Below are positions 935 through 36,456 of a stretch of 43,658 nt of DNA, piece after piece (position 1 is the stretch's first letter; every line of letters starts with the position of its first letter). The notes below the pieces were generated by a model. It had not been told where the DNA came from. It saw only the letters and a list, made by a program, of their open reading frames with translations, and ran no database searches. Both the position numbers and the translations under genes were made by a program. This DNA is from Acutalibacter sp. 1XD8-33. GTDB taxonomy: Bacteria > Bacillota > Clostridia > Oscillospirales > Acutalibacteraceae. The stretch lies in assembly GCF_003612555.1 (NCBI RefSeq), contig NZ_RAZF01000025.1, positions 1 through 43,658 on the forward strand, given 5' to 3'.

Positions 935-1674
935 ATGCGCATCATTCTCTGCGACGACCAGCGGCGTGAGCTGGAAGATATAGAAAGGATCCTTCGGGAT
1001 GCGGCCCAGCCCTTGGCCGTTGACCTCTCTGTTTCCACCTGTACTTCCGGTGAGGAGGCAGTACGGGTGGTCGTGTAAGGCCCCCCGCCGGACCTGGTGA
1101 TTCTTGATATATATATATGAAAGGGCTAAACGGCATGGAAACCGCCCGCCGTATGCGCCAGGCTATGCCCGGACTGCCCCTGGCGTTCCTTACCTCCAGC
1201 CGAGACTTTGCCGTGGACGCCTTCGCCCTGGAAGCCCTGCACTATCTTGTAAAGCCCTTGACAGTGGAAAGCGCCCAGGAGCTTTTACGGCGGCTCCGCA
1301 CCCCAAATTTCGAAGTCTCCCGCTGCCTGCAGCTTACCGGTCGCGGAGAGAGCCGCCGGTTCCCCCTGGGGCAGATCCGCTACCTGACTAGCCTAGACCG
1401 GGGCGTCCAGCTGTACCTGCTCTCCTGCCGGGAGTGGGTGGCTGCTCCTTTCCATCAGGCGGTGGAACAGCTGGGGGAAGAGTGGGACTTCACCCTGGTC
1501 TCCCGGGGCTGCATCGTCAACCTGAACAGCCTGCTATATCTAGGCGGCTCCGGCTGCCACCTGACAACAGGGGAATGCCTGCCCGTCAGCCGCCGGGAGC
1601 GGTCCAAGGTGCAGGCCCGGTATCACGAGTTCATGTTCCGGAAAATGAGCCAGATGGAGGAGGATCTGCCATGA
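935..1674 (+). pseudogene. LytTR-family response regulator, disrupted
   Basis: Start ATG 935 follows a GGGAG site. The receiver begins MRIILCDDQ (acidic pocket), has the phospho-acceptor Asp in VILDI and the conserved Lys in YLVKPLT. A LytTR DNA-binding domain follows (about residues 125-235), with VSRGCIVNLNSLLYL and LPVSRRERSKV. The total would be about 246 residues, normal for AgrA/ComE-type regulators. Two lesions split it: an in-frame TAA at 1076-1078 in the receiver, and one extra AT unit in the dinucleotide run 1107-1118 just after the phospho-Asp, which shifts the frame. The remainder reads open from 1117. The stop overlaps the kinase start (ATGA). In its active form it should pair with the following histidine kinase. 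Confidence 0.8.
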
Positions 1675-2936
1675 GCCGCCTGTTAAGCCCCATGCTTCTC
1701 CTGATGGTCTGGGCCCAGACCATCCCCCTGGTGCCGCTGATGTACGCCCCCTTTGGGGACGGCGCCCTGCGGTTCCGGCGGCGGAACTGCCTGCTGGCCT
1801 TTACGGGGTATTTCCTTTTGGGCTGCGCGGGCCTGGATTGTGAAGGCCCCGGCCCTCCACAAGCTGATGATGGCGGGCATGGTGATCCATTACGCCGCAG
1901 TCCAGATGCTGGCCAGCAACCTGTCCGCCCTGCTCATCGGGGACCAGGAGCGCTATATCAACGAGATTGTGTATACCGAGGCGGGGAATGCCTACGTTTT
2001 TTTCACGATCCTGGGGGTCACGGCCGTTACCTGGCCCCTGGTATGGCTCTTCTCCCGCCGCACCCTGCAGGGGAGTCTGCCCCTGCTCAGCACGCAGGAG
2101 GCCCGGCGGGGACTTCTCTATATCTGCGTCATGTTCCTGCTGTTCTGCTTTGTCTCCCACTGGATGCCCTATTTCCGCCAGCCCTTCGCCACCGTCTCCT
2201 TCCTCTCCATCACTCTGGCCGAGATGCTCACCTACTACACCTTCTTCCAGGAGATCGCCACGGTGCGCAGGCAGGCGGAGACCGCCCAGGAGCTGGCCGT
2301 GTGGCAGGTGCAGTACCGGCAGCTCAGCCGGGCCATAGAGGAGACCCGCCGCCTGCGCCACGATATGCGCCACCATCTGAACGCCCTCTCCGCCCTGAAC
2401 GCCCAGGGGAAGCAGGAGGAGATCGCGGAATACCTCAAGCAGTACGGCACGGTGTATGACCAGTTGGAGAAGCAGAAATCCAGCGGAGACCCGGTGGTGG
2501 ACAGCGTTCTGGAGTACTACCTCAGTCAGGCCCGGGAGGCGGGAGTCGCGGTGGAGTGCCGGGCATCCCTGCCAAAGGGCAGCGGCGTGGATGCCACGGA
2601 CATCACCGTGCTTCTGGGAAACTGCCTGGAGAACGCTCTGGAGGCAGTGCGCGTTCTGCCGCCGGAGGAGCGAAGGCTGTCTGTGGAGATCATGCCATCC
2701 GGAGTGGTGCTGCTGATCCGGATCCGAAACGCCTGCGGCCCCATGCCGGACATGGAGGGCTTCTCCGGATGGGAGGCGTTCTCCTCCGGTAGGAGGACGG
2801 CCGAAGGGGTCTGGGACTGCGCAGCGTGGCCCTGATCGCCGAGAAGTACGGCGGCAGCGCCCAGTTTATCCGCAAAGACGGGGAGTTTACCGCGCGCGTC
2901 CTGTTAAACTGCGTAAAAACCGAAAAGACAGTTTAG
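1671..2936 (+). pseudogene. AgrC/HPK10-type sensor histidine kinase, frameshifted
   Basis: Start ATG 1671 overlaps the regulator stop as ATGA, showing a coupled two-component pair. The N-terminal half is a series of hydrophobic helices, as in peptide-pheromone receptors of the AgrC/ComD group. The phosphorylated-His motif is LRHDMRHHLNALSAL, the N box is NCLENALEA, and the G2-like box GLGLRSVALIAEKYGG lies after about 2805. Two frameshifts break it: one near 1825-1845 in the membrane domain, one near 2785-2810 between the N and G2 boxes. Restored length is about 421 residues. It would sense an extracellular peptide, plausibly the GG-leader peptide at 8088; that pairing is inference. Confidence 0.78.
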
Positions 2937-2960
2937 GCACAATCTAAGGAGAGAAAGGCA

Positions 2961-3431
2961 ATGAGAGAAGAGATTTTCCGAAAATCCAGCCTGGAAAGAC
3001 TCAACAGCCCCGCAAAGCTCAGCGGCTATATTCGCGTGGTAAGCCCGCAGGCATGGTTCGTTCTTTTCGCGCTGCTCCTGCTGCTGGCGGGGATGCTGAT
3101 CTGGGGCGTATTCGGAACCATTGAGAGCACGGTTTCCACTGGGGCCCGGGTCAGCGGGGAGGTGGCCCTCTGCCCCCTCTCAGACGAGGACGCCCAGCGG
3201 CTGACCCCGGGCATGACCATTGAGATCGCCGGGCAGAAGGGGATTATTCGGGCGGTATCGAAGGAGGCGTCCCATCATGACTTGGAGCCCTATCTGCTGC
3301 AGCTCTCCGGCCTGGACCCGGAGGAGGACTGCAGGATGGTAGAGGCCGAGGTAGAGGGCCTGCAAGACGGCATCTATCCGGCCAGCCTGGTGGTAGAGAG
3401 CTTTCGGCCCATCTCCTTTGTGGTGGGCTGA
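2961..3431 (+). CDS. Short HlyD-like NHLM secretion protein
   Basis: 156 residues, AAGGAG site upstream. The N-terminus (REEIFRKSSLERLNSPAKL) and following membrane helix (about residues 31-52, ending GVFGTIEST) match NHLM-system secretion proteins, relatives of HlyD membrane-fusion proteins. Full-length relatives are around 400 residues with a long coiled-coil hairpin. This one has the helix and a small beta domain only, with no coiled coil, and ends ESFRPISFVVG. Short forms like this may be a genuine Gram-positive variant, so I treat it as intact. Its stop lies one base before the ATG of the next gene. It probably assists the two ABC proteins in moving the precursor peptide across the membrane. 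Confidence 0.65.
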   Translation: MREEIFRKSSLERLNSPAKLSGYIRVVSPQAWFVLFALLLLLAGMLIWGVFGTIESTVSTGARVSGEVALCPLSDEDAQRLTPGMTIEIAGQKGIIRAVSKEASHHDLEPYLLQLSGLDPEEDCRMVEAEVEGLQDGIYPASLVVESFRPISFVVG

Positions 3432-3432
3432 T

Positions 3433-5610
3433 ATGGGCGGGATAAATAAAAAGCCAGTAAAGGCCCCGGGCAGGGCAAGTGTTCCGGCCATCCTGCAGCT
3501 GGAGACCTGCGAGTGCGGCGCGGCCTGCCTTTCTATGGTTCTTGCCTATTACGGCCGGTTTGTCACATTGGAAGAACTCCGCACCGCCTGCGGCGTCTCC
3601 CGGGACGGCTCCAACGCCAAGAACCTTTTGCGAGCCGGGCAGGCCTATGGGCTTATGGGGCAGGGGTTGCGCATGGAGCCGGAGGACCTGCGGCAGCGGG
3701 GCAGTTTTCCCTGTGTCCTCCACTGGAACTTCAACCACTTTGTGGTGCTCTTGGGTTTTCAGGGAGGGTATGCCCTGATTAACGACCCGGACAGCGGCGC
3801 GCGCCGGGTGCCCATGGAGGATTTCGATCGATCCTTCACCGGCATCTGTCTGGAATTTGCCCCGGGCCTGGATTTCGCCCCCGGCGGCTGCCGGAGGAGT
3901 CTTTGGGGGTTTATAAAAGAAAAGCTTACCGGCTCCCGGGAGCCCTTTGCGTTGACGGCGGTGTCGGCTGTGATTACCGCCCTAACCGGCCTGATCACCC
4001 TGGGATTTACCCGAGCCTTTACTGACAGACTCCTTACTGGGAAGGATCCCGGATGGATGGCGCCCTTTTTTCTGGGAGTGGCGGGACTTTTGGCCCTGGA
4101 GGCCGCAGCCATGTGGTTAAGCCAAAGCTATAGCCGCCGAACCGAAGGTAAGCTTGCCATCCTCTCCAACAGCAGTTATATGTGGCATCTTCTGCGCCTG
4201 CCAATAGAGTTTTTCTCCCAGCGCATGGCCGGGGATGTGCTGGCCAGAAAGCAGAACAATAAGGCTGTGGTTAAAACCCTGGTGTCTATTTTAGCTCCTC
4301 TGTTTTTGCAGGGGGCCATGATGGTGTTCTACTTGGCGGTGATGCTGCGCTACAGCCTTGTCCTCAGTCTGGCGGGAGTTCTCTCGGTGCTGCTGAACCT
4401 TGTGACCTCCCGGCTGATCGCCCGGGTCAGGGCGGACCGCATACGGGTACTCTCCCGGGACCAGGGAAAGCTCTCCGGCATGACGGTGTCCGGCATTGAG
4501 ATGATGGATACCATCAAGGCCGCTGGGGCCGAGCAGGCTTTTTTTGCCAGCTGGGCAGGGCATCAGGCACAGGTCATGGGGGAAGAGGCCGAGCTGCTGG
4601 AAAAAAGTGCCTATTTAGGGATGCTGCCCCGGGCGCTGTATGCCCTGCTGAACACCGTCACCCTGGTGGGCGGGGCCTGGCTCTGCTCCCAAGGGCAGTG
4701 GACTGTGGGCATGATTACAGCTTTCAGCGGGCTTTTGTCCTCATTCATGTCTCCGGCTTCCCAGCTGGTGGAGAGCACCCGAGTCCTCCAGGAAATGCGC
4801 ACGGACATGGAGCGCATCCAGGATGTGATGGAATATCCCGTGGACGTGGAATATGAGGACGGAGACTTGGGGGAGGAGAGCCTGGAAAAACTTTCCGGCC
4901 GCATTGAGTTCAAAAACGTCACCTTCGGCTACTCTCCCCAGAGCAAGCCCCTGCTGGAACACTTTGACCTCACCATAGAGCCTGGACGCCGGGTGGCTCT
5001 GGTGGGCCCGTCGGGCTGCGGTAAGTCCACCATCCTCAAGCTCACTGCCGGTCTCTACAAGCCCTGGAGCGGGGAGATTCTCTTTGACGGCAGGCCCATC
5101 GCGGAGATTCCACGCCCGGTATTTACCGGGTCTCTCTCTGTGGTGGACCAGGACATCAGCATTTTTGAGGATACCCTGGAGAGCAACATCCGTATGTGGG
5201 ATGAGACCATCGAGGACTTCGAGGTGATCCTCGCGGCCAGGGACGCCATGCTTCATGAGGATATCGTCACCCGGGAGGGCGGCTACCGCTGTATGCTGAC
5301 GGCGGGAGGCAGGAACCTCTCCGGCGGGCAGCGACAGCGCCTGGAGATTGCCCGGGTCTTGGCGGGAGATCCCACCATCGTTTTGATGGACGAGGCCACC
5401 TCCGCCCTGGACGCCGATACCGAAGCCCAGGTGGTCAGCGCCATATGGGACCGGGGGGTCACTTGCGTGGCCGCGGCCCACAGGCTCTCCTCTATTATAG
5501 GCTGTGACGAGATCCTTGTGCTAGAACGAGGAGCTGTGGTCCAGCGGGGGAGCCATGAGCAGCTGCTGGCAGAGGAAGGGCTGTATAGGCGTTTGGTGCA
5601 AAGCGACTGA
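3433..5610 (+). CDS. C39-peptidase/ABC exporter of NHLM type
   Basis: 725 residues from ATG 3433. The N-terminal C39 peptidase has the catalytic Cys in LETCECGAACLSMVLAYYG, His in LHWNFNHFVVLLGF and Asp in INDPDSG, so it should cut leaders after a double glycine. A six-helix exporter core follows (about residues 165-450). The ATPase has Walker A GPSGCGKST, signature LSGGQRQRLEIARVL and Walker B IVLMDEATSALD. All key residues are present and the frame is clean. The GVSRDGSNAKNLL block is typical of NHLM peptidase/ATP-binding proteins. It sits between the HlyD-like gene and the second ABC gene, the standard NHLM order. Role: cleave and export the GG peptide encoded at 8088. Confidence 0.9.
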   Translation: MGGINKKPVKAPGRASVPAILQLETCECGAACLSMVLAYYGRFVTLEELRTACGVSRDGSNAKNLLRAGQAYGLMGQGLRMEPEDLRQRGSFPCVLHWNFNHFVVLLGFQGGYALINDPDSGARRVPMEDFDRSFTGICLEFAPGLDFAPGGCRRSLWGFIKEKLTGSREPFALTAVSAVITALTGLITLGFTRAFTDRLLTGKDPGWMAPFFLGVAGLLALEAAAMWLSQSYSRRTEGKLAILSNSSYMWHLLRLPIEFFSQRMAGDVLARKQNNKAVVKTLVSILAPLFLQGAMMVFYLAVMLRYSLVLSLAGVLSVLLNLVTSRLIARVRADRIRVLSRDQGKLSGMTVSGIEMMDTIKAAGAEQAFFASWAGHQAQVMGEEAELLEKSAYLGMLPRALYALLNTVTLVGGAWLCSQGQWTVGMITAFSGLLSSFMSPASQLVESTRVLQEMRTDMERIQDVMEYPVDVEYEDGDLGEESLEKLSGRIEFKNVTFGYSPQSKPLLEHFDLTIEPGRRVALVGPSGCGKSTILKLTAGLYKPWSGEILFDGRPIAEIPRPVFTGSLSVVDQDISIFEDTLESNIRMWDETIEDFEVILAARDAMLHEDIVTREGGYRCMLTAGGRNLSGGQRQRLEIARVLAGDPTIVLMDEATSALDADTEAQVVSAIWDRGVTCVAAAHRLSSIIGCDEILVLERGAVVQRGSHEQLLAEEGLYRRLVQSD

Positions 5611-5646
5611 ACGCTGAGATTGATTTGATTGAGAGGAGGTGTGTTT

Positions 5647-7837
5647 TTGGGCTGGTTTGACGAACAGATCCGCCTGCGTGCCAAAAAGGATCAGGAGGCG
5701 TTCAGCGGGGCCTTTTCCGGCATGGCGGATGTAGTAATGAATAAACAGCTGGCCGCATTGTTGCGGGACCAGAGCCAGCAGTCCCGGCAGGCAGTGGGGG
5801 AAATTTTAAAGTTTTACGGATTGCCCTTTTTACAGGCCTCCCATGAGAGGACAGTGTCTCGGCAGCTGGAGGAAGAACTGGGCTCCAGAGGGTTTCTTTG
5901 GCGCAAGGTGAAGTCAGAGGGCAAGTGGCACAGAAATGCGTGGGGCGCCATGCTGGGCAGGCGGGCCGGCTTGGATGAGGAAAGCGGTAAAGTGATTGCT
6001 CTCATTCCCCGCCCGCTGGGAGGCTACGACTTTTTTGACCCGGACACGGGCAGGCGCGAAAAGATCACAAGGCGCACCTGCTCTCTCTTGGCGGAAGAGG
6101 CCCTGTGCTTTTACAAGCCCCTTCCCCAGCGAGAAATCGGGCTAAAAGACCTTGCGGCCTATGCTATAGACTCGGTGGGCATAGGTGACTGGCTCCTGTT
6201 TGTGCTGGCGACCCTGGCGGTGTCCTTGGTGGGGCTGCTGCCCCCGTGGCTGCACGACGTCCTTTACACCGAGGCGTCTTTGTACGGCAGCCTCCGTGCC
6301 TTGATGTCTACGGGAGTGTTCCTGCTGTGCGCGGGGTTTGCCGGTGTGCTGCTGGGTACATACAAGTATTTGACTCTCGGACGCATTTCTGGCAAGGCCG
6401 GGGCGGCAATGCAGGCGGCGGGTATGGCCCGGTTGCTGGCGCTGCGCCCCAGTTTTTTCCAGTCCCACAGCGCGGGGGAGCTTCAGAGCCGCCTGGAACG
6501 CATGGGAGAGCTCTGCTCTAGCACCCTGAACACCGTGCTCTCTGGGGGGCTTACCGCCCTGTTCTACCTGGGGCAGATGGCCGGCTTCGCTCCCGGGCTG
6601 GTGATCCCTGGCCTGCTGGTGCTACTGGCAACTGGCGCGGCGTCCCTTCTGGGCATGGCCGTGAGGCTGAAGCTGGCCCGAAAGGCTATGGAGCGGCAGT
6701 CCAGAGAGTCGGGCCTGGCCTACGGCCTGATGATGGGAATACAAAAATTGAAGCTGGCCGGGGCAGAAAAGCGCGCGTTTTCCAAATGGGCAGGGGCCTA
6801 TATCCCGGTGGCAAAGGTTCGCTATGACCCGCCTCTTACCCTTCGGCTGGCTCAGGCGGTCTGCCAGTGGCTGCCCCTGGCGGGTACGGCGGCGCTGTGG
6901 TTCTTTGCGGTGAAAACCCAGGTAGCGGTGGGGGATTACTTTGCCTTCATTGCCTCCTACGGCGTGGTGTCCGGGGCTTTTTCCACACTGATGGACTCGG
7001 TGGAAAGCTTTGTGCAGATCAAGCCCCTGATGAGCCTGCTGACCCCCGTTCTCACCACAGTGCCGGAATTTGACCCCGGGAAGAAGCGGGTGGAGAAGCT
7101 ATCCGGCAGTATAGAGATGAGCCACGTCTCGTTCCAGTATGGGGAGAAAGCGCCCTGGGTCCTTAACGACCTCTCCCTGAAAATCCGCCCGGGGGAGTAT
7201 GTGGCCCTGGTGGGGGGGGGGGGGGGCCGGGTGCGGGAAATCCACCCTGATGTGGCTGCTGCTGGGCTTTGAGCGCCCCCGCAAGGGCGCGGTCTATTAC
7301 GACGGGAAGGATATGAGCACCCTGGACCTGTCCAGCCTGCGCCGGAATATCGGCGTGGTGATGCAGGACGGCAAGCTCTTTGCCGGGGACATCTACCAGA
7401 ACATCGCCCTATGCGCCCCGGGGCTCACCATGGAGGAGGCCTGGGCCGCGGCAGAGATGGCGGGCATCGCCGATGAAATCCGCCAAATGCCTATGGGGAT
7501 GCAGACCCTGGTCTCCGAAGGGGCTGGGGGCGTTTCCGGCGGGCAGCGCCAGCGGATCTTGATTGCCCGGGCCATTGCCCCCAGGCCGAAGCTTCTCTTT
7601 TTTGACGAGGCAACCTCCGCCCTGGACAATCTCACCCAGAAGCAGGTCTCCCAGTCCCTGGACCGCCTGAACTGCACCCGGGTGGTAGTGGCCCACCGGC
7701 TCTCCACCATACGCCAAGCCACTCGAATTCTGGTGCTGAAAGACGGTAAAATCATGGAGGACGGCGGCTATGAGGAGCTTATCCGGAGGGGCGGAACCTT
7801 CGCCCGGCTGGTGGAGCGCCAGCAGGCCGTACAGTAA
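5647..7837 (+). pseudogene. Second NHLM ABC transporter, shifted at a G15 run
   Basis: Start taken as TTG 5647, eight bases after AGGAGG; the product then begins MGWFDEQIRLRAKKDQE, typical of the second NHLM ABC protein. An extra N-terminal domain (about 170 residues) replaces the peptidase, followed by membrane helices and an ATPase. The first frame runs to 7272; the ATPase resumes in another frame with AGCGKSTL, VSGGQRQRILIARAI and LLFFDEATSALD. The break is a run of 15 G at 7212-7226, exactly where Walker A is encoded. Eight, eleven or fourteen G would give an open frame and an intact P-loop; fifteen does not. Restored length is about 730 residues. The cause could be real slippage or an assembly error. 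Otherwise the gene looks sound. Confidence 0.85.
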
Positions 7838-8070
7838 ACTCTAAGACCTTGGGGTTTCACCCCAAACCCCACAAACTTTTTGAAAAAAGTTTGATCAAAA
7901 ACTTTTACCCACTCCTCGCTTTGCTCGTCGTGAAGGTTTTATGTGTTTTGACAAGCTAACCGAACAATCGTAAAAGTTTCGTCAACCTTTTCAAAGGTTG
8001 CGGAGTTTTCAGGGGTGGAACCCCTGAACCGCCGGAGGCCAAAATCCACTCTAATAATATCATTTCTATT
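7838..8070 (+). repeat. Intergenic hairpin mosaic 1
   Basis: No gene. A chain of small inverted repeats: a CCTTGGGG/CCCCAA pair (7847-7866), AAACTTTTT/AAAAAGTTT (about 7872-7890), CAACCTTTTC/AAAGGTTG (7983-8000), CAGGGG/CCCCTG (8011-8026). It contains the 32-base word at 7970-8001 found identically at 40945-40976 and inverted at 38979-39010. The GACCTTGGGG...CCCCAAACCC module recurs at 40831-40855. It sits between the transporter genes and the precursor peptide. Confidence 0.7.
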
Positions 8071-8087
8071 CTGAAAGGAGCATCACC

Positions 8088-8273
8088 ATGAACGAGAAGA
8101 AAAATCCCACCACGATCCCAGAGAACGACAAGAAGGTACTGACAGAGGAAGAGCTGGAGCAGGTCGCGGGCGGCCGCCCCGCCCCCAGCGCGTATTCGGG
8201 CGGGCTCTCCGGCCAGGAGGCCTACCTGCGCCACGAGTTCGGCAAAACCGGGCACGACCCGAAAAAGCCGTAA
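8088..8273 (+). CDS. Double-glycine leader peptide precursor
   Basis: 61 residues with a good GGAG site (about 8077). The leader ends LTEEELEQVAGG (GG at 28-29), the classic cleavage signal for C39-peptidase exporters such as the one at 3433. The predicted 32-residue core begins RPAPSAYSGGLSG, ends KTGHDPKKP and contains no cysteine. No lanthionine, sactipeptide or other RiPP-modifying enzyme is visible in the window, so the product is probably unmodified. It could be a peptide pheromone for the kinase/regulator pair upstream or a class II bacteriocin-like peptide. The core is hydrophilic and not obviously amphipathic, which favours signalling. It is one of few undamaged genes in the locus. 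Confidence 0.75.
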   Translation: MNEKKNPTTIPENDKKVLTEEELEQVAGGRPAPSAYSGGLSGQEAYLRHEFGKTGHDPKKP

Positions 8274-8305
8274 GCTCCAGCGCCGCCTGCCAGAGGAACG
8301 GGGGA

Positions 8306-9217
8306 ATGGCGGAGAGACTGGAGGACACTGTGGAAATTGCTCGGCAGCTTATCAGGGAATACTATAACGGCAACCCTGAGCCCTGGTTTTCGCGGCTGTG
8401 CTCGAAAAGCTTGTGGCTGGGGACCGGCGAGCGCACCATCGTGGGCGAGGAGGCCATCCGGCAGCGCCTTTCTCGGCTGAAGTCACACAGCAGCAGGGTC
8501 CTTCTGGACGAGTACACCCGCCTGCCCATCACCTCCCGCTGCGAGGCTGTAACGGCCCAGGTCACCCTGGGCAGGGACAGTGCCGCCATTATGGCCCGTT
8601 ATTCTCTGCTGTTCCAACTGATAGGCGGCGATACAAAACTAATACTATTGCACGCTGACTATGAATTTTTGCACCACGGCTCTGCGGCTCGGGCATCCCG
8701 CTCTTCCGCATATCAGGCAGTGCTGGACGTGCTGCTGGAGACCTCCCAGAACCAAAAATTAGCCGTGCCCAGCGAGGGAAGCACGATTTTTCTCCCGGCG
8801 TCTTCTCTGCTGTATGTGGAGAGTCTTCGGAGTAAGACTTTGCTGCACTGCGTGGACCAGGTCATAGAGTGCGGCCTGAGCATCACTGCCATGCGCCGGC
8901 TGCTGCCCAGGTGTTTCTGCCATATTCACCGCTGCTATTCGGTCAACAGCAAATATGTGATGGCTATTCGCCGGTATGAGGTGAAGATTATCACCGGCGA
9001 GACACTTCCGGTACCCTTTCACACCTATAAGGAGGTGAAGGAGCGCTTGGTGCTGGACTTAACGGAGCTTCAGTACCTCTCCTCGGCGGGGCTCAGGGTA
9101 TTGCTTGCAGCTCGAAAAGCTCTGGGCAGCGGGGAGATGTTAGTGCGCGGCGCCAACGAGGCTGTGATGGAGGTTCTGGAGATAACGGGCTTCACCGATA
9201 TCCTCTCCATAGAATAA
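8306..9217 (+). CDS. SnoaL-like / LytTR / truncated STAS fusion regulator
   Basis: 303 residues in one open frame. Residues about 1-130 resemble a SnoaL/NTF2-like fold (IREYYNGNPEPWFSRLC, YSLLFQLIGG). Residues about 150-246 form a LytTR DNA-binding domain (IFLPASSLLYVES, FCHIHRCYSVNSKYVMAIRR, LPVPFHTYKEVKERL). The last 57 residues are the C-terminal part of an anti-anti-sigma STAS domain (LDLTELQYLSSAGLRVLL, EVLEITGFTDILSIE), including the serine region normally phosphorylated. The first 40 or so residues of a STAS fold are missing at the junction near 9045. This suggests a deletion joined two neighbouring genes, SnoaL-LytTR and STAS. The partner phosphatase/kinase follows 10 bases later. Confidence 0.7.
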   Translation: MAERLEDTVEIARQLIREYYNGNPEPWFSRLCSKSLWLGTGERTIVGEEAIRQRLSRLKSHSSRVLLDEYTRLPITSRCEAVTAQVTLGRDSAAIMARYSLLFQLIGGDTKLILLHADYEFLHHGSAARASRSSAYQAVLDVLLETSQNQKLAVPSEGSTIFLPASSLLYVESLRSKTLLHCVDQVIECGLSITAMRRLLPRCFCHIHRCYSVNSKYVMAIRRYEVKIITGETLPVPFHTYKEVKERLVLDLTELQYLSSAGLRVLLAARKALGSGEMLVRGANEAVMEVLEITGFTDILSIE

Positions 9218-9227
9218 GGAGGACCAG

Positions 9228-11480
9228 ATGCGGCCCTTCCATTTAACTAAGGACCGGGAGCGTACCGGACTGCCGTCTGTTTTGGCGATTTTTCAGCGGA
9301 GGCTGGGGCTGGTGGTAGCCGCCGCCTTTTTCCTGATCTCCCTGTTATTTCTGGTTTTGCAGACCAGACTCTGTGTGCAGAACGCTGAGAAACTCATGGC
9401 CCTAAACCTGGAGGACGTGCGCCAGGAGATCCGGGATCAATCAGACCGTACCCTGATCAACGCCGCCCAGTGGGTATCCGCCGACATGCAGAAGGTCTGA
9501 GACGCCACCCCGGAGGGGGAGCGGAACGCCCTGCTGAAACGGCTGTGCGAGACCTATAGCGTGTCCGAGGGGAACGTCGTTGATGAGAGCGGCGTTATCA
9601 CCTACAGCACCAACCCGGACTTCATTGGGTACCACATGGATCAGGGGGAGCAGTCCCGGGACTTTTTGATACTCCTGGATGGGCAGACCCAGGCCTTTGC
9701 CCAGGAATACGGAGAGATCGCCTTGGGGGGCGCCAGCCGCAAGTATGCGGGCCTTTCTTTGCCCTGGGGCGGTTTTTTGCAGGTGGGCTACGACGAGGAG
9801 ATGTTCAGCCTCTGCCTGGGCTACCTCATGGCTGGCGTCACCAGCAACCGCCATGTGGGGGAGACCGGCTTCGTCTTTATCATCCGGGAGGACGGGGAGA
9901 TCGTCAGCGGCGAAGAGGACCGGGGCGGCAAGGCCCTGGAGAGCGGCCCCCCCTGGCCGGACGCCCAAGGGCAGGGCTCCTTTTCTCTGCCCGTCTATGG
10001 GAAGGGGCACTGCTGCCTCTGTGACCGGTCGGAGGGCTACTACATTCTGGCCGCGCTGCCATGGCGGGAGGTCTTTGTCAACCGGGATGCCTCTCTGTAC
10101 TTGACGGCCGTTTCCGGGGCGCTGGTTTTTGCCGCCGTGTTTTTGCTGATTTCCCGACTGGTGCGCACCCACATTGTAAAAAGTATCCAGGAGACCGGCC
10201 ATGCCCTGGAACAGATTACAGAAGGTGACCTGGATGTGACAGTAGAGGTAGGCGGCTGCCAAGAATTTACCTTGTTGTCCCAGGGCATCAACGCCACTGT
10301 GGCTCGCCTAAAGGCATATATAGCTGAGGCGGCGGCCCGGCTGTCCCAGGAGCTGGAATACGCCAAAGCCATACAGTGCTCGGCTCTGCCTCGGGTGTTT
10401 CCCCCTTACCCCCACCGCCGGGAGTTCGGCCTTTTCGCCTCTATGCGGGCGGCCAAGGAGGTGGGCGGCGACTTCTACGACTTCACCCTGCTGGATGAAA
10501 ACCGCCTGGCTTTCCTCATTGCCGACGTCTCCGACAAGGGCATTCCGGCGGCCATGTTCATGATGACCGTAAAGACCCTGCTGCGGGGCCTGGCCGAAAG
10601 CGGCCTGCCGCCGGAGGCTGTCTTTACCCAGGCCAACCAACGGCTGTGCGCGGACAATGACACGGGGATGTTCGTCACCGCCTGGATGGGCGTGCTGGAA
10701 CTGGATTCCGGTCGAGTGCGCTACGCCAATGCGGCGCATAATCCCCCGGTACTGCTGGGGGCCGGCGGAAAAGCCCAGCTGGTCAGGGGCCGTCCGGGCT
10801 TTGTGCTGGGCGGCCTGCCGGGCACGGTCTACCGGCCCCAGGAGCTCTCACTTTCTCTGGGGGACGCTCTGTTCCTCTACACCGACGGCGTGACGGAGGC
10901 CGCCAACGGGGCGCTGGATCTGTTCGGTACTCCCCGGCTTCTGCAGGTGCTAGAAGAAAAAGGTGGAGAGAGCTGTCAGGCCATCTGTGAGGCTGTGCAG
11001 GCCAGAGTAGACGCCTTTGCGGGCAGCGCGCCCCAGGCTGATGATATGACCATGCTGGCCCTGGCCTTTCATGGCCTGACCTCAGCAGGAAAATCCCTGC
11101 GGCTTCCCGCCGATTTGTCCGCTTTGGAGGAGGCCGAAGCCTTTGTGGGGAAGGCCCTGGGGGACGCGCCGCCGAAAGCGCTGGCCCAGCTGGGCGTAGC
11201 CGTAGACGAGGTTTTCTCCAATATTGCCCGGTATAGTGGCGCGTCTGCCGTGGAGATAGGCTGTGAGGCCTCCCAAGGATCCTGCCAGCTGTGGTTTTTG
11301 GACGACGGCGTACCCTATGACCCCACCGCCCAGCCGGAACCGGACACCGGCATTCCTGCGGAGGAGCGGGAACCGGGCGGGCTGGGCATCCTCATTGTCC
11401 GCCGGACCATGGACCGGGTGGAATACTGCCGGGAAGCGGGGCGCAACCGACTGACCCTGGAAAAAACTTGGGGAGTTTAA
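9228..11480 (+). pseudogene. Membrane PP2C (SpoIIE-type) phosphatase with anti-sigma ATPase, one in-frame TGA
   Basis: One frame spans 9228-11480 (751 codons), interrupted only by TGA at 9498-9500 (codon 91). Order: membrane helix (about 27-48), extracellular sensor region, second helix (about 287-310), HAMP (about 312-364), PP2C/SpoIIE phosphatase (about 398-618; GGDFYDF, DVSDKGIPAAMFM, TDGVTEA, DDMTMLAL) and a C-terminal RsbW/SpoIIAB-like ATPase (VDEVFSNIARYSG, LDDGVPYDP, GGLGILIVRR). Such proteins control partner-switching by dephosphorylating STAS antagonists. The natural antagonist is probably the STAS piece fused into the preceding gene. The lone TGA is most simply a nonsense mutation; an ATG at 9561 could allow a soluble-start fragment lacking the first helix. 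Confidence 0.82.
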
Positions 11481-11545: not shown

Positions 11546-14500
11546 TTAGGCCGTCCACTCAAGATCAATGACGTGTGTGACTGGCTTATTGGAGCAGGGC
11601 TTGAATTTGGCATATGGGGAGTCCTCTTTCGGGGGGACGAATGTGAGGATCAGCTGACCGTTTGCGTAGCCTCGCAGAAGAGATGCCATGCCTGCCATAG
11701 CCCTTTTCTCCCCCAGCTGGGTGTCATAAAAGAAATCACCAGTGCATGACACCGATACCATATCATCCAACGGCATCCACTGGGGGTACATCATTCCCGT
11801 GTCTCCGTGGCTTCCCCCCAAGCCAATGGTCAGAACGCCGAGCGCCTGTTCCTTCAGGTCAAAGATATTGTTCGCCCGCCCCTTTAAGGTGATCTTGTCG
11901 GGCATGCCCTTCCAGCCAATGTCCATAACGATTACCGCGCTGTCAGTGCTATAGGACCATAGGGGCCATTCCTTTTCGTACAGCGTCATGCTGGAGGAGG
12001 CAATACCCGCAAAGGCCTCAGCCTCGAAAGTGATCTCCAAATAGGCCCCGGCCTCCAGGTTAATACCGCCCCAGTAGTCGCAGGAGTAGTCCGTCAGCGG
12101 CTGCTGGCCTGTTTCGGAGGATTTATTTTGCTCCAGCGAACAGGCAAAGAATCCTGTCAGCTCTATGTATGGCCCGCCCTGTATGTCAATGGAGACCTTG
12201 GCCAGCTCTTTACAGATCAGGGCGACGCCGAATTCCATCTTTAGTCCTGCGCGGATGCCCATTTTACCCAGCACATAGAACTCAAAGTCGATTTTCTCTC
12301 TGGAAAGCTTGTGGGCATGGTTTTCCGCCTTGCGCCCGAACAACGAGATGTCATAGCTGTACTGGTTGGCGCACTGATAGGTAAAGTCCGCCCCCAGGGC
12401 CAGGTTCATATAGCCGTCCATTACAAAGTCTACGTCCAGGTACAGGTTAAACAGCAGGGCCACGGTCATGCTGGGGTTGCAGATGTTGGCGCTGAAGAGG
12501 TTGTGCCACTGCTTTTTCTCATGGATCAGAGCCCGGTAACGCTCCACCAGCCGGTCGGTCAGATCCTTTCCGTTCCGGCTATTCAGAAGCTCCTTCATCT
12601 CCTCGTCTATCGTCTGGGTAGAGACGATATCGTCATCCTTTGTATTCAGGGCCGCTATGTCGAAGGTGATGTCGGTATAGTCCTGGATGTTGGCGTTGAG
12701 CTTGACCTTGTAGTCGGAGATATAGGGGATGAACCCCAGCGCATAGCTCCATTCCGCCTTGCCCTTGGTCACCAGATCCAGCTTCATCTCCTGCTGCAGG
12801 GTGCTGGACATTTCGATCTGCAAACACTCATAGCCTATCTGGTCCAAGGGGATGCGTATGGTGACAGAGACCGTCAGAGCGGCGCCGATGCCTTTGCCCA
12901 GATGGGGGCCTGTTTATAAAGATTTACGTCTACATGGTATTTCCAGGTAGTAGAATACTGCTTATGCCACTCCCTTGTCTTGTCGTTTGTGTCCTCTGCG
13001 TCGTCGAACAAGGGGTTGCCATCTTCATCCACCAGCTGACACTGGTCCAGGTCTACCCCGGCATCGGCCGCAGCCTTCTTAACCGTATCGGTTTCCAGGG
13101 CCAGCAGGGCAGTTTGGTAGCCCACCTCACGGGAAAAGCCGCTCTCCTCTACCTGCCGCTGGATACTCTGCACCACAGCGCCCTCGTCAACACCGTCCAG
13201 CAAAGTGTCGCCATCCACCTCGTCTGAATCGAACAGGGACATGGCGTCCTCCATCTCTTCCTTGGTGGTGTCCGCGTAAGCGATAATATATGCGCCGTTC
13301 TCCTCTTCTACAGCCATGATGCGGTCATAGCCAGTGATCTGCGTGCCGCTGGAACCGAACTCGCCCTCATAAAAGGCCAGGAAGTCGTCCGCCTGCACAA
13401 TGCTATCGGCGCTCAAGCCCATTTCGGAATACTGGGCCCCGCTATAGTCCATATCCTTTTTCGCAACCTTGATGGTATGGTCCCCCACATCCTCTATGGC
13501 TGTCTTTGCCACAGGCAGCGTGTCCGGTATAAAGACCACGTCTGCTGTGTCCGCGTTTTCAAAATGGTAGGTAGAATTTGCCTCGTCCACTTTCGTAATG
13601 GTCACATAAGAGATGTTACTATGCTTGTCATCGTCCTCTTCCTGTACCGTGCGCTCGTCCGGATGCAGACCATCGTACAGGGCCACCACATCGCCTACCT
13701 AGGGGGCCTCCTCCCGGTTGTTGGGGGCGTAGGAGAAGCTGCCTGTTACGCTACCAATATCATCGCTGCCGATGGTAGGTGCTTTGTCTCCCACAGGAAA
13801 CAGGGAAATGATGGGGGAATCCACCTGCTTACCGTTTATTGTCACGTTGTCCACAGCGTCGTGCGAGATGCAGAGGATGCCGTCGTTCAGCCGCAGATCC
13901 ATGACCTCCTGCGGGTGTCGAGTGGTAAAATGGAATTCCCGAACATCGACCTCCTCGCCCTCAAAGGTGAGCCGGTCATCCTCAAGGAATATTTCATAAG
14001 AGCAGCCCAGAGCAAAGCCTTCAGGGTCCTTGGCTGAAACAGTATAGCGTCCAGTGCCGCCGGTTATCGTGAGGAAATCTTCCTTTTCCATGCCGTCGCT
14101 GCCATCATAGGCGGAGATGAGCCCCATAATATTGGCGGCGGATAAATCCAAGGCGCTGCTGACAATTGCTATTGAAAAATCGGGTTCGACCTCATTTTCC
14201 ACAGCGGCATTATGTGTCAGACTCGTAGGCGTTTTCTCAGTTGCCGCCTGCTCTTCCAGATACTCCATCACCCGCACAAGCAACGCCGCGCCCTGAGCAC
14301 GGCTTACCGTGCCTTTAGGGTCAACCTTGCCGTTATTCCCCTTCATCAGCCCCGCATACCACAGGGTGATGACAGAGTCCCTGGCCCAGGAGGAAGCAGC
14401 GCTTATGTCCTCCGGCAGCTTAACGCCGGAAACCTGCTGAGGAGTGACGCCGGCATAGTCAAGGTATCGAACCAGCATAGCCGCAAACGCTTCCCGAGTT

Positions 14501-16163: not shown

Positions 16164-18961
16164 ATGACGCGCAAACACTTTATCCCCATTCTCTTGGCGG
16201 TTCTGATGCTTCTGACGGCACTTCCGCCGGCCGCCTTGGCGGCGGAGCCGGGCAGCTCTGAAGGACAGGCCGGTCTAGCCCTTCTGCAAAGCCTGTTGCC
16301 GGAGGAAGGCCTGGAGGAAATCGAAATTACCAGCCAGATGGAGGCGATAGAGAAATATGCGGCCCAGCCCGCCTGCGACTGGACCATCTGCCTGTACGTC
16401 TGCGGAACGGATCTGGAAGAAAGGGGGAGCTTTGCCACCCAGAACATCCTGCAGATGATCGAGGCGGATATCCCCGAAAACGTGAAACTGCTGGTGATGA
16501 CCGGCGGCACCCGCCAGTGGGACCCAGAGGACCTGGGGGCCGGGACGCCCGCCTATAAAAAGCCCTCCAACGTCAGCACGCAGCTATATGAGATAACAGA
16601 CAAAGAAATGGTGCTGGTGAAGGACTATCAGAGGAACATGAACATGGGCGACCCCAAGACCCTGGGGGCTTTCCTGGAGGACTGCCTGAGTTTGGCTCCG
16701 GCGGAGCGAATGATGCTGAGCTTCTGGAACCACGGCGGCGGACCCCTGATGGGCGTGGCCCTGGACGGCTATACCGGGGATATCCTGAGCCTTGCGGAGC
16801 TGGACGCGGCGCTGCGTGGCCTGCAAACCGCCCGGGGGGGGGTGAAAAGCTGGAGCTGCTAGGCTTTGACGCCTGTCTGATGAACAACCTGGAGACCGCC
16901 TATGTGTTCTCTCCCTACTGCGATTATATGGTGGCCTCGGAGCAGACCGAGCCCGCCCCCGGCTGGGACTACCAGTGGCTGAACGCCCTGGAGGAGGAGT
17001 ATTCCGATGGGGACGAGACCTCCACCCTGGAGGCGGATGACCTGGGCCGGGTGATTGTGGATACCTACGCGGGCAACATGAATGAGGAGAGCGAGTGGAG
17101 CCAGGTCAACGACGAAACTCTGGCCCTGGTCGACCTCTCGCGCATGGAGGATTTGGCCGCCGCCTTTAACGAGATGGCTTTTGAGCTGAACCTTTTGGTG
17201 CATAACGATCAGCTTTTCGCCAAGGTCTCCCGGATGTCGGAGAAGGTGCAGCATATGATGGACGACTACGGACTTTTGGATCTGTACGACTTTGCCAACG
17301 GCCTTTTGCCCTACGTGCCCGCCGCCCAGGGGGTGCTGGACGTGCTGGGGACCTCTCCCGGCACAGAGCCGGAGGACTATGTGGGCGAGGTAGGCGGCGA
17401 GAACCCGGCGGTGGTCTACCGGGGCACGGGCGCCAGCCACGACCGCTGCCTAGGGATGGCCTTCTTCTATCCCACCAGCAAAACCGCCTTAGGCACCACC
17501 AGCGCCGAACAGCTTTTGAACTGCGTCTCCCTCTACCGGACCTTTGGCCTCAGCGATTACTACACCTCCTACCTGATCAGCGTTCTGCTCAGGGCCGGCC
17601 AGCTGCGCTCCTTTGTGGGCGGTATGTCCACAGAATACGATCCGGAGGCCGGACACTATGTCCTTCAGATAGCGGATCTGGACGACGCGTTTTCACTGAA
17701 ATCTATGGAGTTCGTCATGACAAGGTCAAAGCCGGTCAGCACAGGCTGGAAGGTGAAGTTGCCCTGGGGGGAATAGGTGCGTGTAGACCCCCCCTCCCCG
17801 GGGGAGACGATGGTGTAGCCCATGATATAGAAGGTTGATTCCGGCACACTGGCCATCCGCAAGGCCGTAATGACGCAGAGCTCCTCTTCCCCTTCGATAT
17901 AGGCAGGTACTGCCAGCACCTCATAAGGCCCCTGGCTCTGGAGCTCCGCTGAGACAAGCTGCCCGTTCAGGGTATACCAGAAGCCGTCAAACTGTTCGGT
18001 AAAGCGGCCGGCATCCCAGTCCTCCGCCGCGGTGGTGGAGCCCAGAAGATAGGTCTCGCCCAGTTTTCCGCCTTCAAACTTTGTATAGGTATTGCACGAA
18101 AAGGCCCTGGCGCTGGCAAAGGAGAAGAATCCCCAGGCCACGAGAGCCGCCTGCTACAGCGTGAAGTTCCTGGAGCAGGCGGCCGGCGGGGGAGAGATCC
18201 GCTCCATCCCCATCGCGGAGGACGGAACGGTGATTCTCAAGCTCCAACTCAGCGGCAAGGCCGCCCCCGATACCTTCCAGGTGTACCGTTACGGCCCGGA
18301 CGGCAGCGGCTTTACCCAGGTGGAAGTGCTCCCCATCATAAGTGAGGGGGATAAAAGCTATCTGCTGTTTGAGACCGACGCGTTCGGGTATTTCTCCGTC
18401 ATCTCCGCCCCAGGGGCCAGCGGGGCCTTCTCCGACGTGCCCAAGGGAGAGTGGTACTACGAGGCGGTGGAGTACGTCCGGAAGAACCAGCTTATGAGCG
18501 GCGTGGGCGGCGGCAGGTTCCAGCCACAGGATACGCTCACCCGGGCCCAGTTCGCCCAGATCGTCTATCAGGCCCAGGGAATGCCCAAAGCCTCCAAGGC
18601 CGGATTCACGGACGTGAAGCCCGGTGCCTGGTACTACGACGCGGTGTGCTATACGGCGGAGACGGGCATCACCGGCGGCTATGGGGACGGCAGGTTCGGC
18701 CCCGGGGACCCCATCACCTGGGAACAGATGGCCGTCATGCTCTGGCGCTGGGAAAAAATCAACAACAAGAATTTGAAAGACCCCAACCTGGCCTTGGATT
18801 TCCCGGATGCGGCACAGGTCAGCGAGTACGCCCAAACAGCCATGCGCTGGGCCGTGGAGCAGGGAATCCTCCACGGGAAAAACGGCAGGCTCGATCCAAA
18901 AGGCTATGCCAAGCGGAGCGAGACCGCACAGATTATGATGAACTATTTTGAGGGGAGATAG
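16164..18961 (+). pseudogene. Secreted clostripain-like (C11) peptidase with SLH repeats, frameshifted and internally inverted
   Basis: Start ATG 16164 after GAGGAGG. Signal peptide (about 1-27, ending ALAAEPG), then a C11 peptidase: catalytic His190 in WNHGGGP, and catalytic Cys (codon 16874) in GFDACLMNN, a different frame. The shift is at a nine-G run, 16834-16842; ten or seven G would restore it. The plus frame continues to about 17710. From there to about 18100 the next part of the protein reads on the minus strand (KFEGGKLGETYLLGSTT, FDGFWYTLNGQLVSAEL, FTFQPVLTGFDLV). Then 18100-18961 returns to plus, with a beta domain and SLH repeats (FSDVPKGEWYYEAVEYV, FTDVKPGAWYYDAVCY). A wall-anchored surface protease that can no longer be made whole. 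Confidence 0.8.
17711..18100 (-). other. Inverted segment inside the C11/SLH gene
   Basis: Coding sense flips to minus only here. The ends carry a five-base inverted match, TTCGT at 17711-17715 and ACGAA at 18096-18100. The minus-strand reading continues the C11 family's C-terminal part, and flanking plus-strand DNA belongs to the same gene. Simple re-inversion at these pentamers leaves a one-base frame mismatch, so the exact breakpoints or a later indel are uncertain. Confidence 0.65.
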
Positions 18962-19439: not shown

Positions 19440-19905
19440 GTGGCCGCGCTGTTCGAGGCGTACATCACCAACCTGGGGAAATATAACGAGGGCGAGCTGG
19501 TGGGGGAAATACTGAAATTCCCCACCAGTCCCCAGGCGGTGGAGGCGCTGTTAAAAAATATCGGCGTGGACGGTATACGCTACGAGGAATTTTTTATCAC
19601 CCGCTTTGATGGCGATGTGTTGGAGCTCAATGACTATCTGGGCGAGTATGAAAATCTGGACGAGCTGAACCATCTGGCCTGCCTGCTCTTGGAGCTCCCC
19701 CAAGGTGAGATCGAAAAATTCGAGGCTGCGCTCCATATCGGGACGCATACCTCCAACGTGGCGGATATCGTCAACCTTGCGGAAAATCTGGACAGCTTTG
19801 AATTTTACCCGGATATGGAAAAGCGAGGACGATTTGGGCCGCTACTATGCGGAGGACTTGCCGATCTCCGCTGAGCTGAAAGACTACTTTGACTATGAGG
19901 CATAC
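19440..19905 (+). pseudogene. ardA: Antirestriction protein ArdA, frameshifted and truncated
   Basis: From GTG 19440: FEAYITNLGKYNEGELVGE, GVDGIRYEEFFITRFDGD, LGEYENLDELNHLACLL, GEIEKFEAALHIGTHT and NLAENLDSFEFYPDM are hallmark ArdA blocks. ArdA is a DNA-mimic protein that protects incoming elements from type I restriction. One extra A near 19818-19823 shifts the frame; the continuation (SEDDLGRYYAEDLP, YFDYEAYG) is in the next frame. The C-terminus is replaced at about 19905 by IS30 transposase sequence. It marks the right side of the element debris. Confidence 0.75.
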
Positions 19906-20225
19906 GGGCTTGACCGTATAGAGCGGAGGATGGGCGCAGGGTTCCGGCAAGTGTTCAGGTCAATAACGGTTGACAACGGAAGCGAATTTCAGGATTGCGC
20001 CGGAATGGAGCGGTCAAAGCGGGCGCGGAAGCCCCGCACAAAGAGTTATTATTGCCACCCGTATTCTGCATACGAACGGGGAAGCAATGAGCACATGAAC
20101 CGCATTATCCGGCGTTTCTTCCCAAAAGGACAAGCTTTGATGAAGTGACGGCGGCGAAGGTTGCGGAAGTAGAAGAGTGGCTGGCGAACTACCCGCAGCG
20201 GATACCGGGATGGGTAATGCCGTAA
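19906..20225 (+). mobile_element. IS30-family transposase C-terminal fragment
   Basis: Reading LDRIERRMGAGFRQVFRSI, TVDNGSEFQDCAGMERS, YYCHPYSAYERGSNEHMNR and IIRRFFPKG gives the DDE-domain end of IS30 transposases (catalytic D in VDNGSEF, E in YERGSNE). After PKG another one-base shift occurs; the rest reads TSFDEVTAAKVAEVEEWLAN and ends at TAA 20223-20225. No intact transposase or clear terminal repeat remains. It is joined in frame to the ArdA fragment. Confidence 0.7.
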
Positions 20226-35469: not shown

Positions 35470-35920
35470 TTATTATACCATAAGAAAAAACATTTGTCTA
35501 TGATTTTTGAGGCCGAGAGGGCGTCAATTTTTTTGAAGTGTTGGAAGGCCTTCGGGCGCACGCAGCTGGCACATTCTTCATCCAGGGGAGCTTTTTATTC
35601 AGTTGCAAAAGAGTTTCATCTCGTTACACGAGATGAACTCTCCGCCCCCTCTTAAGAGTTTTGCTTTGCAAAACTCGGACAGTTAATCGAGTGAAACGAA
35701 GATTAACTGTTATTCACACCCGCAAAAATTGCGCTTCTCAGGCGTCTAGGCCCCTTGCGGGGTGTGGGGGTGAGCGTTCTGCCGGATACTTGGCAAAGCC
35801 AAGTATTGCAGACAACGCTGCGAACCGACCGAGCCGGCAGGCGAGACAGCCCCACGACCTTGCCCCAAAAATTTCCGGATTTTGTAACGTTTCGAGCTTT
35901 TCCCCGTCATATTGTCGAGA
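35470..35920. repeat. Intergenic hairpin mosaic 2
   Basis: No gene. At least four perfect or near-perfect hairpins: GAGTT(T)CATCTCG/CGAGATGAACTC (35608-35637), GAGTTTTGC/GCAAAACTC (35656-35676), ACAGTTAATC/GATTAACTGT (35679-35710), ATACTTGGC/GCCAAGTAT (35786-35806). The word CCCGCAAAAATTGCGCTTCT (35719 on) recurs at 40794, and ACCGACCGAGCCGGCAGG (35824 on) recurs with one change at 39114. Confidence 0.65.
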
Positions 35921-35934
35921 AAGGAGGTGATCCC

Positions 35935-36420: not shown

Positions 36421-36456
36421 GGTCTGCGTCCACAGCCCTTCGGAAAGGAGAACAAA

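Follow-up and report, generated by a model that had tools for sequence, protein, structure and literature searches.

A rearranged copy of a conserved peptide-export locus in Acutalibacter sp. 1XD8-33, with a probable partner switch of its own

The locus and its genes

The window analyzed in this study is a stretch of 43,658 nucleotides from Acutalibacter sp. 1XD8-33 (RefSeq assembly GCF_003612555.1, NZ_RAZF01000025.1), which represents an entire contig of a 3.6-Mb genome held in 106 contigs with a completeness of 99.98%. Its positions 935-11480 carry a rearranged, partly damaged or misassembled copy of a conserved locus in which a peptide exporter lies beside the genes of a partner switch. Exporters with a C39 peptidase cut the GG leaders of their substrates and export the core peptides, and phosphatases of the SpoIIE/RsbU type, STAS proteins and kinases of the RsbW/SpoIIAB type together form partner switches. 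The open reading frames (ORFs) of positions 935-11480 were listed and then compared with Pfam and NCBIfam, and the gene order and strand that an earlier note had read from the DNA letters proved to be correct.

All of the genes lie on the forward strand. The first two form a two-component pair, namely a broken gene for a LytTR-type response regulator (935-1674), of which a relative on the reverse strand (L064:16955-17692) has both Response_reg and LytTR, and a broken gene for an AgrC-type GHKL histidine kinase (1671-2936, start and stop placed by eye), of which relatives match HATPase_c_5. The LytTR part of the regulator is below Pfam detection in the window and was detected in two relatives. 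A short HlyD-like protein of 156 residues follows (2961-3431), recognized by a partial match to TIGR03794, and then two ABC proteins. The first, ABC1 (3418-5610), is uninterrupted and combines a C39 peptidase, a permease and an ATPase (Peptidase_C39, ABC_membrane, ABC_tran; TIGR03796), and the second NHLM-type protein, ABC2 (5629-7837), is split by a frame change and matches TIGR03797 in two pieces. Downstream lies a 61-residue GG-leader peptide with a Cys-free core (LTEEELEQVAGG; 8088-8273), recognized by eye and by weak matches to GG-leader models. The ORF at 8306-9217 is a fusion of an N-terminal part without a family, a LytTR part (to about 9034) and a C-terminal STAS part (about 9035-9217). 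The last ORF encodes a membrane PP2C phosphatase of the SpoIIE family with a HAMP domain (9228-11084; PF07228 at 180 bits, HAMP at 30.7), interrupted by an in-frame TGA at 9498-9500, and includes an RsbW/SpoIIAB-like HATPase_c_2 domain (11094-11480; PF13581 at 58.4 bits against a cut-off of 27.4). Because the upstream stretch 455-934 has no Pfam match and the next long ORF downstream, 11546-12847, lies on the opposite strand, 935-11480 looks like a natural unit. The intergenic sequence at 7850-8045, between ABC2 and the peptide, has by eye the look of an inverted repeat and is perhaps a small repeat element.

Exporter, HlyD-like protein and peptide

The earlier note had named the transporter an NHLM exporter. 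This name fits only partly. ABC1 is matched by its best model, TIGR03796, over its full length (positions 2-710 of 710) at 852.6 bits, 0.7 bit short of the cut-off of 853.3, and the HlyD-like protein and the peptide clearly miss the curated cut-offs. The two pieces of the split ABC2 gene reach 273.1 and 350.8 bits against TIGR03797, compared with a cut-off of 709.4 for a whole protein. The HlyD-like protein matches only positions 1-47 of the 421 of TIGR03794, at 40.5 bits against a cut-off of 156.2. The protein of a relative scores 28.8 bits, the relatives are about 157 residues long, and profile matches to this short form occur in 99 of 102 loci. Its structure model (predicted local distance difference test, pLDDT, 87.7) consists of N-terminal helices, one helix of membrane length and a small beta domain, with no long coiled-coil hairpin. 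No PDB entry matched this fold at E <=0.001; a MacAB-TolC chain and BesA came closest, at E 0.012-0.013, which is too weak to name the fold after them.

The peptide of the window scores 16.4 against TIGR01847 (cut-off 15.7), a weak match, and 16.0 against TIGR03793 (cut-off 50.9), which leaves it below the NHLP/Nif11 leader level, and no Nif11 match was found for it in NCBIfam. Among the peptides of the relatives, one was compared with Pfam and matched PF07862 (29.5 over 23.8), and two were compared with NCBIfam and matched TIGR03798 (31.6 and 25.0, both under 32.3). The label Nif11-type therefore rests on three family matches of two peptides, one of them over its cut-off, and on cluster membership.

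Conservation of the gene neighborhood

Relatives of ABC1 were drawn from two sets. The first consisted of 295 genomes of the same order, that of the window included, in each of which no more than three candidates were scored, so that its counts are lower bounds; ABC1 was present in at least 22 of these genomes, at 23 places. It was present in none of 28 genomes of the same genus, with up to 39 candidates scored in each. Stretches of up to 20 kb were taken around each of the 22 places outside the window, and the order tallies refer to 21 loci and the window, with L051 (genome G250, 3.1 kb) left out. For the second set, 12 aligned ABC1 proteins served as the query against named genomes; of at least 581 confirmed relatives, the best 80 were taken with flanks of up to 10 kb. 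With the exception of Anaerocolumna sedimenticola CBA3638, these named loci come from metagenome-assembled genomes (79/80), mostly of Clostridia, Oscillospiraceae, Ruminococcaceae and Lachnospiraceae, with single loci from, for example, Erysipelotrichaceae, Tissierellia and Chloroflexi. Because the two sets overlap (L113 and L062 lie on contigs of equal length, and there are perhaps other such cases), they were tallied apart.

Clustering of the ORFs around ABC1, blind to function, was performed in 102 loci. ABC genes were recovered in 98 of them and the short HlyD in 57, and the next clusters were PP2C (33), STAS (27), Nif11-type peptides (21, with 55 ORFs) and HATPase (21), followed by sigma factors of the extracytoplasmic function (ECF) type (18), radical SAM proteins (17) and MATE proteins (16). 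Profile matches within 10 kb of ABC1 in the 80 named loci gave a similar list, with STAS in 43, PP2C in 37 and the HATPase in 35. At least one of these partner-switch genes was found in 50 named loci, at least two in 38 and all three in 27; in the 39 named loci whose flanks reach 8 kb or more in both directions, one, two and three were found in 30, 28 and 20, and in the 22 loci of the order set, the window among them, in 14, 9 and 9. The other parts present were an ECF-type sigma gene (24 named loci, in 20 of them together with a small protein described below), Nif11-type peptides (31), radical SAM proteins (25) and a MATE protein (21). The locus of A. sedimenticola CBA3638 (L124) has profile matches for STAS, MATE, PP2C, the HATPase, Nif11-type peptides and radical SAM, with its HlyD and MATE genes each matched as two pieces. 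The two-component pair, which the earlier note had counted among the elements of the system, is present in the window and optional elsewhere, since a regulator of the window's type and its kinase each occur in only 8 of the 80 named loci and the other type of response regulator occurs in 16.

A few of the STAS matches are to longer, fused proteins, for example the 412-residue protein of L063 (13563-14801, forward strand), which lies downstream of ABC2 and has a C-terminal STAS domain and a remainder without a Pfam match. In five loci, a membrane protein of about 480 residues, CstA-like by eye, lies just before the short HlyD (for example, L064:11629-13074 and L078:12011-13456, both on the reverse strand).

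The gaps between neighboring genes are operon-like. Gaps of 200 nt or less separate the HATPase from HlyD in 17 of 18 cases (median 19), PP2C from the HATPase in 32 of 33, STAS from HlyD in 10 of 13, the histidine kinase from STAS in 6 of 6, and STAS from PP2C in 14 of 22. In 49 of the 102 loci, and in 39 of the 80 named ones, ABC1 and a partner-switch gene belong to one series of genes with a common direction and gaps of 600 nt or less between labeled genes; the window does not belong to these 49 because its module follows the peptide gene. In the order genomes G131 and G184, a STAS gene and a PP2C-HATPase gene lie further downstream on the same strand, and in 12 loci, that of the window among them, the PP2C and HATPase matches fall within a single ORF. 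The earlier note had proposed a search for this co-occurrence across genomes and had held that adjacency by mere chance, with no conserved gene order, would speak against it. Gene order and spacing are conserved in many relatives, and no such picture of chance emerged.

Characteristic motifs of the three partner-switch proteins are also conserved. The SSAG motif of the STAS protein was found in 52 of 55 loci and the GGDFYD-type motif of PP2C in 42 of 43. The E, N, D and G residues of the HATPase and the three G of GGLG are present in 43 of 43 members when counted by alignment column (a simpler N-box pattern matched 13 of 43 and a DxG pattern 33 of 43), and the HATPase of the window matches every column that is invariant in these 43. 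For the HATPase and the STAS protein of a relative, the best-scoring models are those of RsbW and of anti-sigma antagonists, with the HATPase below the cut-offs.

Such modules are common, and it could be argued that they landed beside the exporter without any functional link. The order of the genes in the window is not the commonest, and the same genomes carry further PP2C/STAS modules away from the exporters. However, the 22 exporter genomes contain 27 strong SpoIIE-family matches (>150 bits) in about 51 Mb, from which 1.2% is expected within 10 kb of any one place, and a strong match lies that near at 8 of the 23 exporter places (binomial P = 1.5e-10), or at 7 of 22 without the window (P = 4.5e-9). 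The PP2C genes of G115 (a piece at a contig start) and G293 (in two pieces) were below the strength cut and were not counted as linked. The association also recurs in the PP2C tree, where the linked label changes 13 times among 41 linked and 22 unlinked rows (mean of shuffled labels, 18.3) and at least 8 of these changes are forced by well-supported branches. Together with the short intergenic gaps, these results make mere adjacency very improbable. Inheritance as a single unit is not supported, given the 8 or more label changes; the pairing has been gained or lost many times, which speaks for function over mere inheritance. The contrast in the tree is weakened by rows L180, L181, L184 and L191, counted as unlinked, in which a link may exist beyond 10 kb or be hidden by a cut contig, and the branch of the window's PP2C is long and its placement uncertain.

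The fusion ORF and the apparent damage in the window

The ORF at 8306-9217 encodes 303 residues and had been described in the earlier note as a SnoaL-LytTR-STAS regulator whose recurrence might be sought in other genomes. In favor of a true three-part regulator in a locus working as it stands, it is a single open frame in which the LytTR and STAS parts both score and the phospho-site motif SSAG is kept. The STAS part, however, covers only positions 41-98 of the 106 of the Pfam model, so that the first 43 or so residues are gone, and its alignment with a relative begins at residue 44 of the latter. Among the 56 loci with a STAS match, the start of the domain is absent from the best match only in the window and in L105, where the gene is cut by the contig end; it is present in 54 of 55 relatives, and the GRLDT motif of this start, found in 48 of 55 loci, is missing from the window. 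No ORF in the other 101 loci matches both STAS and response-regulator/LytTR models, no SnoaL match was found in Pfam or NCBIfam, and the N-terminal part of the ORF has no match in the other loci at an E value under 0.1. The only outside genome that matched both the LytTR and STAS parts, G043, was considered as a second fusion and rejected since its DNA shows an unrelated membrane protein followed by a STAS gene that is complete and stands alone. Four neighboring genes are interrupted as well. The fusion, seen once and with a truncated STAS domain, is thus not a recurrent part, and a working three-part regulator is very unlikely. The simplest reading of the sequence is that a deletion, either real or made in assembly, would have joined a LytTR gene to the remainder of a STAS gene.

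The interruptions of the four neighboring genes can be located by alignment with the proteins of relatives. The response regulator aligns at 935-1117 in frame 2 and then at 1111-1653 in frame 1, with the change at a TA repeat; the kinase aligns at 1822-2793 in frame 1 and then at 2808-2909 in frame 3; and ABC2 aligns at 5647-7209 in frame 1 and at 7238-7825 in frame 2, around a run of 15 G at 7212-7226. The phosphatase aligns in one frame over 9291-11075, straight across the TGA, which lies upstream of the catalytic domain. The run of 15 G is one of four tracts of at least 12 G in the genome, and such tracts occur in 2 of 9 same-genus genomes tested.

Whether the frame changes, the stop and the STAS fusion are assembly or sequencing errors, with an intact locus in the strain itself, is a real consideration that we regard as somewhat doubtful. 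Two of the frame changes sit at the 15-G run and the TA repeat, and the catalytic motifs of ABC1 and of the PP2C and HATPase domains are kept. The ORF coverage of the locus is comparable to that of other stretches of the genome, which would suit an intact locus and of itself does not distinguish decay from assembly error. However, slippage at a homopolymer does not explain the in-frame TGA or the STAS truncation, the genome is 99.98% complete, and the absence of ABC1 from all 28 same-genus genomes fits a stray, decaying locus. In addition, a nearby gene of the clostripain family (Peptidase_C11; 16164-17776) is split over two ORFs, so the damage to the contig is not confined to the peptide locus. 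If the decay is real, then it is recent, since ABC1 is uninterrupted and the invariant residues of the HATPase are kept. A fragment at 19705-20148 of the window resembles, by eye, a transposase or integrase core.

A small protein, an ECF sigma factor and a candidate promoter

In many relatives, a protein of 59-74 residues (about 62; one with a longer annotated start) is encoded directly before the ECF-type sigma gene, and all 24 adjacent pairs lie within 200 nt (median gap 5). Members include L151:9569-9781, L105:7448-7633 and L100:19669-19866. Two members had no match in Pfam or NCBIfam. An alignment of 25 rows has F12, Q15, L23, L39, A48, A49 and G50 invariant, and the protein ends in L-x-D-x-x-L-E-x-x-A-A-G (A-A-G-G in a few rows), where the peptide leaders have L-S-D-E-E-L-E-x-V-A-G-G. 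The structure model (pLDDT 66.8) has two helices. The family was found in 8 of the 295 order genomes, in 6 of them with ABC1 in the same locus (hypergeometric P = 2e-6); the remaining two, on short contigs, have a piece of ABC2 directly upstream, so all 8 have NHLM-type ABC genes. A sample of 398 genomes from across the phylum yielded weak, partial matches in 2 genomes. The sigma factor beside the small protein in L105 scores 86.0 against TIGR02937 (cut-off 42.9) and is over the cut-offs of PF04542 and PF04545.

Boxes of the AAC and CGTA type are typical of ECF promoters. The sequence AAC-N16-18-CGTATMAA occurs at 14 sites in the 1.77 Mb of the 102 loci, of which 9 lie 35-100 nt before a small-protein match, 2 lie before Nif11-type peptides and 3 lie elsewhere, one of the last (L078) just after ABC2, in the usual place of the small protein/sigma pair. 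Candidate sites include L061:9886, L067:13450 and L120:14436. The -10 part alone occurs at 128 sites, 16 before small-protein genes, 7 before Nif11-type genes, 4 before STAS genes and 2 before other labeled genes. Two control octamers (73 and 207 sites) were found before no small-protein gene and before Nif11-type or STAS genes once and twice, respectively.

Proposed working of the locus

We consider it probable that the locus of the window is a broken copy of a conserved peptide-export locus with its own partner switch and that the target freed by this switch is, most likely, an ECF sigma factor. According to this model, ABC1 would use its C39 domain to trim precursors of the GG/Nif11 type and would export them together with ABC2 and the short HlyD. 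The membrane PP2C would dephosphorylate the small STAS protein, which in its unphosphorylated form would bind the RsbW-like kinase and free the partner of the latter, and the kinase would re-phosphorylate STAS at the conserved Ser, as is established for SpoIIAA/SpoIIAB/SpoIIE and RsbV/RsbW/RsbU. The freed partner would most likely be the ECF-type sigma factor encoded with the small protein, and this factor probably reads AAC-N16-18-CGTATMAA upstream of the gene pair to which it belongs and of some of the peptide genes. In some loci, the AgrC/LytTR pair may add peptide sensing. The HAMP domain on the PP2C of the window and a domain of five transmembrane helices on the PP2C of L059 indicate that the input probably comes from outside or from within the membrane. 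We infer the binding partner of the kinase, the signal of the phosphatase and the role of the peptide, and as the likely output of the switch, we would place the ECF factor first and the exporter or a MATE-HATPase protein second.

The second choice is prompted by proteins in which a MATE domain is joined to a C-terminal HATPase_c_2 domain, a build for which we know of no described example. If the switch acted on such a protein or on the exporter, then peptide release would be gated after translation in a manner similar to BtrUVW. Two of these fusions (L062:15393-17147 and L067:2218-3978, both on the forward strand) are over the Pfam cut-off, 9 of the 16 members of the MATE cluster have a HATPase-like domain, and in several loci, L067 among them, the gene for this protein is flanked by those for STAS and PP2C. 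The STAS, HATPase and HlyD genes are packed together, and 34 of the 50 named partner-switch loci have no sigma gene within 10 kb. In Bordetella, a partner switch controls secretion by a mechanism described as unknown (PMC7498569). However, a MATE gene is present in only 21 of the 80 named loci, 7 of the 16 cluster members have no HATPase-like domain, and of two further MATE proteins, that of L095 falls short of the Pfam cut-off for HATPase, and that of L088 shows no HATPase match. A non-sigma target of this kind appears unlikely to us, although it deserves consideration.

The choice of an ECF factor must itself be weighed against several observations. To our knowledge, RsbW-type kinases do not usually act on ECF factors, and our model draws on sequence and gene neighborhood. 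No partner-switch gene was found in the available flanks, some of them very short, of 30 of the 80 named loci (9 of the 39 well-flanked ones), nor in the stretches of 7 of the 11 less similar order exporters (L068-L077 and L079). The fractions given above come from the 80 best-scoring relatives and describe this transporter clade and not all NHLM exporters, and the profiles were built from the loci that they then scored. Well-flanked loci with a sigma gene have a partner-switch gene in 9 of 11 cases, compared with 30 of 39 overall, which reveals no visible dependence. The promoter motif had been spotted by eye in the very upstream regions where it was later counted, so its count is descriptive, and two of the nine sites before small-protein genes (L064 and L141) are identical. 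The unlinked PP2C/STAS modules mentioned above point in the same direction. Finally, the search of the window revealed neither an ECF gene nor a promoter next to the locus, and the window's single CGTATMAA (24022) and sole match to the sigma profile (35941-36408) are far away. For this reason, and because its STAS protein is without the N-terminal part, the copy in the window, as written, probably does not switch. The distant match belongs to a stretch at 35755-37338 in which an ECF-type sigma factor is followed by a protein with, by eye, the look of a zinc-finger anti-sigma factor.

A more speculative version of the sigma model, to which we assign only a small chance, gives the small protein a part of its own. 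As a look-alike of a peptide leader, it could hold the sigma factor until it was itself pulled away or cleaved by the exporter's C39 domain, such that export itself would release the factor and the STAS/PP2C/kinase module would set the threshold. The arrangement would be the peptide-export counterpart of FlgM export and of BtrA/BtrS in Bordetella.

Exporters of this type occur in many Clostridia records from gut and rumen, and we found no account of what turns their peptides on. With a phospho-switch and a sigma factor conserved inside the export locus, there would be concrete genes, a promoter sequence and a succession of events open to testing. In the order sample, the small protein family occurs only in these loci (8/8). 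If the model is true, then partner switching extends from stress and sporulation to peptide export.

Comparison with known systems

The combination reported here consists of a known exporter class and a known switch class that we have not found described together. Also part of it are a so far unnamed family of small proteins and a shortened form of HlyD. The earlier note had considered it not to be a described system, and this agrees with our search of the full-text literature, in whose coverage (most subscription papers and bioRxiv fall outside it) no paper joins NHLM-type export to partner switching. Term searches in papers on NHLP/RiPP (ribosomally synthesized and post-translationally modified peptide) mining, rumen bacteriocins, STAS proteins and non-canonical ECF factors likewise did not return the pairing.

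The exporter genes resemble the NHLP/NHLM and Nif11-type RiPP clusters (TIGR03796, TIGR03797, TIGR03794 and TIGR03798), which have tandem ABC proteins, a C39 domain on the first of them and precursors with GG leaders (Haft et al., 2010; PMC2887384). A term search of the main text of that paper returned no STAS, phosphatase, sigma or two-component system. Radical SAM proteins are another shared feature, and they occur here in 25 of the 80 named loci. In contrast to those clusters, the HlyD of about 157 residues corresponds only to the start of the 421-position model, and partner-switch genes and an ECF pair are present in many loci. The window also has the C39 exporter, GG peptide, GHKL-type kinase and LytTR regulator of the ComABCDE and Blp systems, the last two in broken form, and differs from these systems in its two ABC proteins, its short HlyD, its partner switch and the optional nature of the two-component pair.

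The SpoIIAA/SpoIIAB/SpoIIE and RsbV/RsbW/RsbU switches free SigF or SigB and are built from the same three protein types. Unlike these switches, the module described here is packed with exporter genes, and the sigma factor in the loci is of the ECF type. An ECF factor under partner-switch control is also found in the EcfG/NepR/PhyR system, which works through sigma mimicry by a response regulator and not through a STAS/HATPase/PP2C module (PMC8999054).

The nearest described logic to the pairing of exporter and partner switch is that of the Bordetella btr locus, which comprises the SpoIIE-type phosphatase BtrU, the STAS protein BtrV, the kinase BtrW, the ECF factor BtrS and the exported anti-sigma factor BtrA (PMC7498569; PMC8256260). 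There, a partner switch and an ECF factor are attached to a secretion machine, and transporter genes lie inside the btr locus itself. The machine there is a Type III injectosome of a Gram-negative bacterium and here a C39 peptide exporter, the likeness is one of description, and the small protein would take the place of BtrA only as a candidate anti-sigma factor.

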